From [Pseudopropionibacterium] massiliense (lineage in GTDB: Bacteria > Actinomycetota > Actinomycetes > Propionibacteriales > Propionibacteriaceae), in NCBI RefSeq assembly GCF_900607225.1, contig NZ_LR027842.1, forward strand, positions 2,582,284 to 2,646,283: 64,000 nt of DNA, given 5' to 3'. The notes below the pieces were generated by a model. That model had not been told where the DNA came from, ran no database searches, and worked only from the letters and a program-made list of their open reading frames with translations. The translations under genes and the position numbers were made by a program. How positions within the stretch are numbered: position 1 is the stretch's first letter; each line of letters begins with the position of its first letter. Of this stretch, positions 28,868 through 60,828 are shown in pieces.

Positions 28868-30537
<1,670 letters not shown>

Positions 30538-30548
<11 letters not shown>

Positions 30549-32109
30549 GCGAGAACTCCGAGATGAGGTTCGGGACGCTCAGGTCGAAGCCTGCGACATC
30601 CAGCATGCCGGGATCACCCGGATCGGCGATGCTGAACCTGCTCGCGTCCATGCCCACCACGATGAGCTTCGCATCGATGCCCATCGTGTCCCGGTACCGG
30701 GACAGGGCCTGGTGCGGGTGGATCTTCCCGTACCAGGTCTCGTTGTCGGTGTAGATGATGAAGGTGTCCACCTCCACCTTCTGCTTGAGTGCATGGAGCA
30801 TTGGCTGCGCACAGTCCGTCGAGCCGAAGGGCAGACCGTCGATGCGACGCAGCACATCGTCGAGACGCTGCCTGGGTGAGATGTCCAGCGGCACGAAACG
30901 GTCCTGGAAGGCCATCACCGAGACCTGCGGTTCGGTGGCCAGCTGCACGAGGCAGAGTGCCGCCGAGGCCTCCCGCGGGGTGAGCGGGGTGCCCGCAAGA
31001 CCTCCCAGGGCCATCGACCCTGAGACGTCGAGCCCCACGAGGGTTCGCTTCCCCGCCGGCGTGACCGCCCCGAAAGCTGCGTGGAAGGCCGCATCGAGGG
31101 CATCGGTCACCTTGGCGGTGGGCTCCCACGTCGAGCCGCCCCGGAAGGAACGACCAGCCGCGTAGGTGCGGGCCGCCGCCAGCACAGTGACGGGGTGCAC
31201 CCGGGCCCGGCGCAGCCGCTCCGGATCGGCGAGCTGCGCACACACCTCGTCGGTGCGTCCCCCGAGCCCCGGCAGCAAACCGAGGCGGGTGAGTCGCGGC
31301 AGCTGCCTCAGCAGCGCGGTCTGCGGGATACCGACATCCAGAAGCGCTTCCCAGACCTCAGCCTTGGTCACGGCCTCGTCGGGAAGCATCTCCCAGGTGA
31401 GGCGGTACTGACGGATCAGCTCCACCCACCTCGCAACGTCACGGGTCGCCTGGGCGGCCATGAAACCGTGGATGAGCTGCGGGGTGTGCTCGTCGACGCC
31501 GGAACGCACGATCCACTCGAAGGTGGAACGCAGCTCCGGCACCACCGTCGCAGGATGGGACAGTCGCAGCAGATCACGGTGGCTCCAGCCCTCACGTTGC
31601 CGGTACTTAACCGCCTGGTGGGCCAAGGCGTCGGCGCCCCTGTCGAGGTACCAGGACCCGACGGCGCGCCGGAGCCCGCGTCCCCAGCCACGGAACTGAC
31701 CGACGTACCCCGCGAAGGTGAACAGGTGCATTCCCGTGCGGGCGACGCGCGGCAGGGCCGCCAGGGCCAGCGGCGACGACTCTGCCACGGAGGTCGCGTA
31801 GGCCAGGGCGAACAGGGCCGGTCCCTGCTTGGGCGCGACGCCTCCTTCGGAGACCTCGACGATGGTCTCGACGAGGCCCGTCGGGTCACTGGAAGCCATT
31901 CGGGTGAGGACCTTCACGTTGTCGAGCGCGAGCTCACGCGGAGCGACGTAGTAGGTGCCACCATCGACCCCCAAGGTCAGGAAGCGACGCAGGCGCGCCC
32001 GATCATCGAGCCGGAAGGTGTATCCGCCCGCCGAATTGGGGACCTGGCGTGCGTCGGCCGGTTCACTCTGCCGTGCGACTCGGGTACTGATGGCACGAAG
32101 GGGGTCCAT
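30538..32109 (-). CDS. rsr: TROVE-domain protein, Ro60 orthologue (Rsr)
   Basis: A 523-residue ring-forming RNA-binding protein. The TROVE HEAT-repeat domain spans about 20-350 and a von Willebrand A-like domain about 355-523, with the metal site DVSGS (Asp361, Ser363, Ser365) and later TDN. The length and layout match Ro60/Rsr, which binds Y RNA and, in Deinococcus, tethers PNPase for structured-RNA degradation. A strong AAAGGAGG lies 7 nt before the ATG. Two tRNA-like RNA candidates lie immediately upstream on the same strand, and a small HTH gene overlaps its end. No rtcB/rtcA genes are nearby. Confidence 0.93.
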
Positions 32110-32150: not shown

Positions 32151-32297
32151 CTGGGCCCGGGCGGGCATGAGGTGGGCACCGGCTGGGCTTACGCCCGGCG
32201 CTCTCGACCGCTGAGCTACCCCCGGAGGGAGCGGGATTCGAACCCGCGACTCCTCATGGATAGTGATACCTGATGCTCTTCGGGCCGCCCGGGCCAG
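32151..32297 (-). ncRNA. Candidate Y RNA (YrlA-like, permuted tRNA-like) upstream of rsr
   Basis: The minus-strand RNA is closed by a 12-bp stem: 5' arm 32297-32286 (CTGGCCCGGGCG) with 3' arm 32163-32151, one bulge. Inside, in 5' to 3' order, are a T arm (GCGGG-TTCGAAT-CCCGC, 32247-32231), an acceptor-like hairpin closed by a short loop (CTCCC/GGGGG, about 32232-32217), and a D arm (GCTC...GAGC, 32216-32200), then a GGGC-GTAA-GCCC hairpin. T arm before D arm with a closed acceptor is the known layout of bacterial YrlA RNAs, which mimic tRNA. TACTGA (32307-32302) lies 5 nt upstream as a possible -10. The RNA ends about 41 nt before the rsr start. Confidence 0.78.
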
Positions 32298-32373
32298 AAA
32301 GTCAGTACGCGAGGGCCGCCCGGACGTGTGTTGACATCCGGGTGCATCATCGTTCGGATGACTACCGAACGTC

Positions 32374-32519
32374 GGCCCGCGGAAGGCGAACCGAGGGGAC
32401 TTGAACCCCGAGCAGACCGCGCTGGTCCGCATTACCACTTTGATAACCGAGCATCTCCGGCCCGGGCGGTCCTCGCGCTGTGGAGTTGTGTTCTCGCGGG
32501 CCTCTCGGCCCATCAACTG
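32374..32519 (-). ncRNA. Second candidate tRNA-like/Y RNA with its own promoter
   Basis: The closing stem GGCCCGCG (32502-32495) pairs with CGCGGGCC (32381-32374). Inside are a D-like hairpin TTATCA-AAG-TGGTAA (about 32447-32432), a 7-bp hairpin GCGGACC/GGTCTGC (32430-32412), and a T arm GGGG-TTCAAGT-CCCC (32409-32395). A 5' hairpin GGGCC-GAGA-GGCCC competes with the closing stem. No acceptor consistent with a charged tRNA can be built. Two hairpins follow downstream (32371-32351 and 32342-32319), without T-runs. It lies in tandem with the other candidate and rsr. Confidence 0.6.
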
Positions 32520-32530
32520 TGTAACACAGT
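32516..32530. promoter_or_regulatory. 15-bp palindrome over the RNA promoter, possible operator
   Basis: ACTGTGT-A-ACACAGT, perfectly symmetric around one central base, overlaps the -10 and start site of the tRNA-like RNA. It looks like a repressor site; no regulator is assigned. Confidence 0.5.
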
Positions 32531-32554
32531 ACACACTTTGCGGCCAAGGCACAA
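32526..32554 (-). promoter_or_regulatory. Promoter of the distal tRNA-like RNA
   Basis: On the minus strand, -35 TTGTGC (32554-32549), a 17-bp spacer, and -10 TACTGT (32531-32526). Predicted start is about 32519. Confidence 0.55.
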
Positions 32555-59553: not shown

Positions 59554-60615
59554 ATGGTGAGATTCAACACGGATCCCTTGGTGGCTCCCCTCGCCCCGCA
59601 GGAGTTGCAGGTCCTGAAACAGCGCCGCAGAAACGGCGAGTTCGGACCCCACAAGTCGTCCACGTGGCTTCTCGTGCTCATCTTCGTGGTCGCCTTCGTC
59701 TTGAGCGCCTTCAACTTCTTCATCGGCTTGCGATTCTCCAGATCCTCGAATCAGTTCCTGCTCTTCGCGCTCTTTTTCTGCGCAGTCCTCGTCACGATGG
59801 CCGTCACTGTCGTCAGGAACCTTTTGAAGGCTCGTCGGCGCCGGATGGACTGGGCCCTGCTGGCGCGTTTCGCCGACGCCAACGGGATGCGGTTCGGAAT
59901 CCGCTCGGCCGATCCCAACTACCCGGGGCTGCTTTTCAACAAGGGGCGTTCCCGGGCCTCCACCTTCCATCTGTTCTCCCCGACCGGGGTGCTGGCCGAT
60001 GCCGGCTGCTACGAATACACCACGGGTTCGGGCGAGGACAACACCACCCACCGCTGGCGTTTCGCCGCGTTCCGGCTGCCGCATCCCGTACCGCACCTGC
60101 TGCTCGACGCCAGGGCGAACAACGGCAGGTGGGGAACGAACCTGCCGGAGACCTTCGCGTCCTCGCAGCGCATCAGCCTGGGGGAACCCTTCGACAGCCA
60201 CTACCAGCTCTACGCCCCCGACGGTTACGGCCGCGACGCCTTCCAGCTGCTGCCGCCCCACGTCATGGAGGCCTTGCTGAACACCCGGGTGGTCTACGAC
60301 ATCGAAATGGTCGACGACTGGTTGTTCTGCTACACGGGTTCCGCCCAGGATCTGACGAACCCGGCCACCTGGCGCCTGCTGGAGACCATCGCGAACGGCG
60401 TGCTGGGTTCGCTCACCCCGGTCGTCGGCCGCTACAGCGATCCACGTGCGCTGGCCGGGGCTGCGGGGAACGCCGGTTACGGACCGGGATACCCCGTTCA
60501 GGTCGCGCCGGAGGGCAAACGGCTGCGGCGCGGGGTGAACATCTCGGTCTTCATCGTGTTCGCCGTCTTCCTGGCCTACATGATCCTGACCAGGTTCCTC
60601 GGGCTCCCCGGGTAG
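59554..60615 (+). CDS. Membrane protein, tandem paralogue B
   Basis: A 353-residue copy of the preceding gene, sharing long identical stretches in the soluble domain (ARFADANGMRFGIRSA, FDSHYQLYAPDGYGRDAFQL, VYDIEMVDDWLFCYT) but diverged in the membrane segments. GAGG lies 4-5 nt before the ATG. The two probably arose by tandem duplication and share a role, which is unknown. Confidence 0.78.
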   Translation: MVRFNTDPLVAPLAPQELQVLKQRRRNGEFGPHKSSTWLLVLIFVVAFVLSAFNFFIGLRFSRSSNQFLLFALFFCAVLVTMAVTVVRNLLKARRRRMDWALLARFADANGMRFGIRSADPNYPGLLFNKGRSRASTFHLFSPTGVLADAGCYEYTTGSGEDNTTHRWRFAAFRLPHPVPHLLLDARANNGRWGTNLPETFASSQRISLGEPFDSHYQLYAPDGYGRDAFQLLPPHVMEALLNTRVVYDIEMVDDWLFCYTGSAQDLTNPATWRLLETIANGVLGSLTPVVGRYSDPRALAGAAGNAGYGPGYPVQVAPEGKRLRRGVNISVFIVFAVFLAYMILTRFLGLPG

Positions 60616-60682
60616 GAGTCGAACCTACTTCGCTAGTCCTGATTCAAAGTCAGGCGGGCCCTGCCGGAAGACCAACCGGGGA
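60604..60682 (-). tRNA. tRNA-Gln (anticodon UUG)
   Basis: Acceptor TCCCCGG/CCGGGGA, D arm GGTC...GGCC, anticodon stem CCTGA/TCAGG around CTTTGAA (anticodon UUG), T arm GTAGG-TTCGACT-CCTAC, discriminator G. The variable region is 9 nt (ACTAGCGAA), longer than usual for glutamine, and only CC of CCA is encoded. A tRNA near glmU is common in actinobacteria, which supports the call. Confidence 0.8.
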
Positions 60683-60828
60683 ACGGCCCGAACCCCGGGC
60701 CGGTCGCAAGTCTAACGGAAAGAAGTGCTCGTTGGGTTTCCACATTCTCGCGTCGGCGTTGCGTTTCCGGAGGATCCGGCTCCGGTGTGTTCATGATTAC
60801 TGAAGGAGGATCGATCCGAGGAGGAGAC

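Follow-up and report, generated by a model that had tools for sequence, protein, structure and literature searches.

A tandem Y RNA array, a Ro60 orthologue, and a candidate helix-turn-helix regulator at a propionibacterial rsr locus

The rsr gene and the adjacent Y RNA

Y RNAs that neighbor rsr, their tRNA mimicry, and the Ro proteins of phages are already known. The 64,000-nucleotide stretch of DNA analyzed here, which we refer to as the window, is from [Pseudopropionibacterium] massiliense, an oral-type actinobacterium, and encodes rsr on the minus strand (30538..32109). Pfam and NCBIfam profiles identify its 523-aa product, which carries the MIDAS motif DVSGS, as a bacterial Ro60 orthologue, and its TROVE (4.7e-42) and vWA_Ro60 (3.9e-66) domains score above the Pfam cut-offs. 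The match to the NCBIfam Rsr model NF041674 (E = 1.2e-153) covers residues 4-522 and reaches 512 bits, which misses the cut-off of 900; judged by sequence, the window Rsr is an orthologue outside this strict equivalog model.

A preliminary description of the locus had proposed a YrlA-like Y RNA about 41 nt before rsr and on the same strand. Both the element, here called Y1 (32151..32297), and its placement hold up: 41 nt separate its 3' end (32151) from the rsr ATG (32109), and both are on the minus strand. The two ends of Y1 form a closing stem of 11 uninterrupted pairs (32295-32285 with 32164-32154), one fewer than the "perfect 12-bp" stem first reported. Enclosed by this stem, and in the order originally given, the minus-strand sequence contains a T arm (32247-32231, GCGGG-UUCGAAU-CCCGC), a closed acceptor hairpin with a UCCG tetraloop (32230-32219, UCCC-UCCG-GGGG), and a D arm (32216-32200, GCUC-AGCGGUCGA-GAGC). 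This is the permuted order of YrlA, and the tRNA-like part of Y1 spans 32200..32247 on the minus strand. A plus-strand reading was rejected; the plastid UTR families of Rfam that match this strand do so at the reverse complement of the T arm.

The Rfam YrlA covariance model (RF02553), which had been suggested as a check, does match Y1, but with 26.5 bits against a cut-off of 69 and only in the tRNA-like part (32250-32200). At the gathering cut-off, this model has no match in the window or in any of 19 related loci (0/19). We therefore file Y1, on sequence grounds, under the wider Y RNA kind and not under the curated Rfam family. Because the folding energy alone beats chance only modestly (z = -2.4; 3/200 shuffles), the reality of Y1 rests on comparative evidence. 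We used MAFFT to align 26 tRNA-like units located upstream of rsr in relatives, including the window Y1 (alignment A2), and the unforced consensus comprises the same five helices. The compensatory changes whose absence in relatives had been named as grounds for rejecting the element are present, with double changes in 22 of the 36 pairs, and 96.3% of the cells are paired, a value that falls to 35-50% when the partner is shifted by one to three columns. Covariation is 0.417 versus 0.154 in shuffled alignments and was never reached in 500 shuffles (0/500). Helix 1, the stem of the 5' and 3' ends, has 97.7% of its cells paired and double changes in 9/13 pairs, and helices 3-5, which correspond to the tRNA-like domain, also covary. 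The RNA folds and their covariation are thus directly supported.

A covariance model built on the 26 aligned rows (R1) matches Y1 with 101 bits (E = 1.8e-17), the window copy being one of the training rows. Across 63 rsr loci, many of them outside the training set, R1 identified 146 units in 59 loci, all of which are upstream of rsr and on its strand (four units in 14 loci, three in 10, two in 25, and one in 10). The Rfam YrlA model misses this clade, as R1 shows. Among 61 genomes, R1 matched 9/9 that have rsr (at least 50% identity) versus 2/52 that do not; class-wide TROVE sampling yielded too few rsr genomes for use. The two matches without a detected rsr (G058:C1:2817298-2817433, E = 8e-6; G041:C1:658415-658567, E = 7e-5) are either orphan Y RNAs or false matches. 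The probability that a degenerate tRNA gene or a fold arising by chance explains 32297-32151 is negligible: a T-loop consensus is present and the energy is only modestly better than that of shuffles, but the permuted arm order, the covariation in 26 sequences, the place before rsr, and the absence of an ARAGORN tRNA call at Y1 argue against it, and the order, covariation, and ARAGORN result rule out the decayed tRNA. Elsewhere in the window, ARAGORN calls a tRNA-Gln (ttg) at 60601-60683 (minus), where the Rfam tRNA match is below cut-off.

Tandem Y RNAs with varied tips

The original extent of Y1 stands as that of one unit, but a second, distal Y RNA had been missed. Y2 (32307..32478, minus strand) was absent from the training set of R1, which matches it at 32471-32314 with 47.2 bits (E = 3e-7). 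Its stem has 15 pairs, one mismatch, and the canonical motif GGGCCG..UCGGUUAUC. A T arm (32409-32395; loop UUCAAGU) is followed by an acceptor-like hairpin of 7 bp (32392-32374). Y2 has no D arm; a third hairpin (32371-32351) takes its place. This layout is kept, in the same or a shortened form, in six relatives.

At most related rsr loci, two to four Y RNAs form a tandem array, and from its sequence context Y1 is classed as one unit of such an array. Some units in other relatives have no tRNA-like tip at all (L007 -298..-194, L018 -155..-40, and L024 -131..-38). Varied tips are thus found on one kind of stem, and one Ro60 protein may therefore be served by several tips. In this clade, a Ro60 gene usually comes with two to four Y RNAs that differ from one another, which suggests several effector tips for a single protein.

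The stem of Y2 is canonical, and the Rsr-binding stem of Y1 has a different inner helix (GCAU/AUGC, AGGU/ACCU). The Y1 motif departs from the consensus at three near-invariant Rsr-binding positions (GGCCCG..CAGGUAUC versus GGGCCG..CGGUUAUC; 32297-32264 and 32177-32155, minus strand), all three of which are kept in the nearest relative, L002. Because of these changes, Rsr binding by the window Y1 may be altered or in the process of being lost.

The small gene after rsr and the upstream palindrome

Clustering of open frames near rsr revealed, in 24 loci, a same-strand frame of 70-100 aa directly 3' of rsr; a profile search added two more, giving 26 bacterial loci. The window copy (30261..30548, minus strand) has its stop at 30261 and starts at either GTG 30548 (95 aa, overlapping rsr) or GTG 30467 (68 aa, the conserved core). 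Relative to its nearest relatives, 19 of 24 changes fall at third codon positions. AlphaFold2 models the protein with a pLDDT of 94.7 as a long helix (residues 2-40) followed by helix-turn-helix (HTH) helices (47-54/58-66), a predicted classical HTH fold. Taken alone, the window protein is below every HTH family cut-off, and a divergent relative (L044) passes Pfam HTH_28. No family describing the protein was found in Pfam, NCBIfam, or PHROGs, and PDB sequence and fold searches returned nothing significant, the fold matches being weak HTH domains (E >= 0.6). The homologue in L024 (4568-4861) scores above the cut-off of Pfam MRP-L20, a mitochondrial ribosomal protein, which is probably a spurious helix-plus-HTH similarity that could mislead annotation. 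Seven of the eight rsr-bearing genomes of the genus have the HTH gene once, and in the eighth the contig ends at rsr; no copy was found elsewhere in 61 relatives, genomes without rsr included.

Ahead of the Y RNA array lies the palindrome TGTGTA-N6-TACACA (32518..32535, no strand assigned), the proposed operator, which occurs once in this genome and once in each of the eight rsr-bearing genomes of the genus. A genome of the genus that lacks rsr (G022) has a site of this pattern at another place (C19:34733-34750). All 18 bases are identical between the window and its nearest relative, and the flanks have diverged. The core TGTA-N6-TACA is present within 1 kb upstream of rsr in 26/26 bacterial loci with the HTH gene versus 0/27 without it, using a pattern that was relaxed after inspection of some of the discovery loci (L036 and L045 were found blind) and counting loci that, here and below, are not phylogenetically independent. 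Further bacterial loci, with duplicates removed, gave 6/7 versus 0/10: L101, L103, L105, L109, L114, and L119 have the core and L118 does not. L105 has both the HTH gene and the palindrome, and L108, from the same genus, has neither.

The same association is seen in viral contigs. A scan with the HTH alignment alone detected 24 homologues, 24/24 of which are downstream of rsr; tblastn with the 68-aa protein had found no match in a phage collection at 1e-5, whereas the profile-guided search does find phage homologues. The core is present in 14/21 viral rsr loci with the HTH gene within 1.5 kb versus 0/19 without it (duplicates and truncated loci left out), and under a stricter 400-base rule the counts are 11/16 versus 3/24 (p = 5e-4). 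The exact core is absent within 1-1.2 kb in seven viral HTH-bearing loci and in L118. R1 has 75 matches in the 24 viral loci L077-L100, and some actinophages carry several Y RNAs before rsr. The order of the genes and the association of the HTH gene with palindrome and rsr are thus directly observed.

The half-sites, ten base pairs apart, are constant. The six bases at the center are variable, with an inversion in Actinomyces, and we therefore read the palindrome as a likely DNA operator for a dimer. An attenuator hairpin, i.e., a palindrome acting at the RNA level, was rejected, given that both half-sites are kept despite free variation of the spacer and its inversion in Actinomyces. In the Actinomyces loci concerned (L017, L034, L035, and L050), the asymmetric center is inverted (TGTAGGGGTCTACA), and further Y RNAs are found upstream of the palindrome. 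The palindrome precedes a Y RNA motif by 9-56 nt in most loci; in L036, the core is between the Y RNA and rsr. L109 has two copies, at 670 and 322 nt ahead of rsr. A Y RNA motif follows each of them after 22-25 nt, and this locus therefore seems to hold two Y RNA units under separate control. A consensus scan of the window found no sigma-70-like promoter.

Predicted control of the operon and its relation to known Ro60 systems

We consider it likely, from the comparative sequence data, that the operator, Y2, Y1, rsr, and the HTH gene form a self-contained minus-strand operon and that the operator is the binding site of the HTH protein, probably a repressor. Transcription is predicted to begin at the operator/promoter (about 32535-32518) and to proceed through Y2, Y1, rsr, and the small HTH gene. 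Each Y RNA would combine a stem that bears the conserved Ro-binding motif with a tip of its own; the stem would bind Rsr, and the RNA would tether or gate PNPase, whose gene is present in the genome, and structured-RNA substrates, as in Deinococcus. A dimer of the HTH protein is predicted to bind the TGTA-N6-TACA palindrome and control its own operon. The position of the palindrome, at the promoter of the Y RNA array, makes autorepression the most likely mode of control.

An activator in place of a repressor is fairly unlikely. Some operators are 30-56 nt before the Y RNA, a distance that would be workable for an activator too, but in several relatives the palindrome comes right after TTGACA and supplies the expected -10 region, the usual place for a repressor. 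It is improbable that the functional unit consists of Y RNA and Rsr only, with the HTH gene and the palindrome being conserved neighbors that have no mutual functional link. Neither of the two accompanies the Y RNAs and rsr at mycobacterial, Promicromonospora, and many phage loci, so both appear dispensable for the ribonucleoprotein (RNP). Yet the two are present or absent together almost perfectly over several families, in viral contigs, and within one genus (L105/L108), and no HTH gene away from rsr turned up in the searched genomes and contigs. The small basic protein with its long helix, encoded by a gene that overlaps rsr and showing the weak, spurious likeness to a mitoribosomal profile, could also act on the RNA or the Rsr RNP as a third protein of the complex while another factor binds the palindrome. 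We regard this as quite improbable, since the site of an unlinked regulator is not expected to come and go exactly with the HTH gene, and the AlphaFold2 model has a classical HTH.

A more far-reaching version of the autorepressor reading, which we think has only a slim chance of being correct, is a mobile, self-regulating Ro60 RNP cassette shared by actinobacteria and phages, in which the HTH protein represses the operon and the RNP titrates the HTH protein. Free tRNA-like Y RNA or damaged tRNA, for example, could then compete with the operator, and Y RNA demand would set Y RNA supply.

YrlA is a bacterial Y RNA (Chen et al. 2014, cited in PMC8394870 and PMC4726728) that is encoded beside rsr and whose two ends form a stem around a tRNA-like domain (T, acceptor, and D arms). 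Y1 shares the end-formed stem, the T/acceptor/D domain, and the location. Unlike YrlA (RF02553), the window RNAs are below the Rfam cut-off, several non-identical copies occur in a row, and Y2 lacks the D arm.

RYPER is the Rsr-Y RNA-PNPase machine of Deinococcus radiodurans. Genes for Rsr, Y RNA, and PNPase are all present here, and several Y RNAs replace the single one of RYPER. Mechanistically, the Y RNA stem binds Rsr, and the Y RNA tethers or gates PNPase (PMC8394870, PMC4726728). In Salmonella, the rsr-yrlBA-rtcBA operon encodes two Y RNAs and is controlled by RtcR (PMC7790460). The window resembles it in having a regulated (here predicted) operon with rsr and more than one Y RNA; it differs in that the Y RNAs precede rsr and that a small HTH gene and a palindromic operator replace RtcR. 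RtcR-type control was rejected because rtcB is elsewhere in the genome (C1:1448175), far from rsr.

The use of this system in the lineage had been called little described, which is true only in part: among commensal Ro60 proteins with a relation to lupus, that of Propionibacterium (now Arachnia) propionicum is already known (review PMC11773492). Three published epitopes of that protein exactly match locus L007 of the genus, so the window comes from a sister species. At L007 itself, the HTH gene and the operator are accompanied by three Y RNAs. The control of Rsr and Y RNAs in this genus is of medical interest, since one of its members, Arachnia propionica, has a Ro60 regarded as a candidate trigger of anti-Ro60 autoimmunity. 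We found no link of the HTH protein or the palindrome to Ro60 in a literature search that did not take in the main review and the 2014 paper, and within this scope the dedicated regulator and operator appear to be undescribed. The Y RNAs and Rsr are additions to known kinds, and the HTH protein appears not to have been linked previously to a Ro60 unit. With a single predicted 18-bp target and a candidate dedicated regulator, the switching of a Ro60 RNP outside the enteric (RtcR) bacteria becomes testable in culturable actinobacteria and their phages.

Annotations of phage genomes treat these elements as separate or generic features. In Mycobacterium phage Sparky (L122), no Y RNA is annotated and the HTH gene is labeled a "hypothetical protein." Genes 43/42 of Gordonia phage BearBQ are arranged as in the window, with rsr ("Ro-like RNA binding protein") followed by a slightly overlapping small HTH gene; unlike in the operon reading proposed here, the latter is annotated separately and generically as a "helix-turn-helix DNA binding domain protein."
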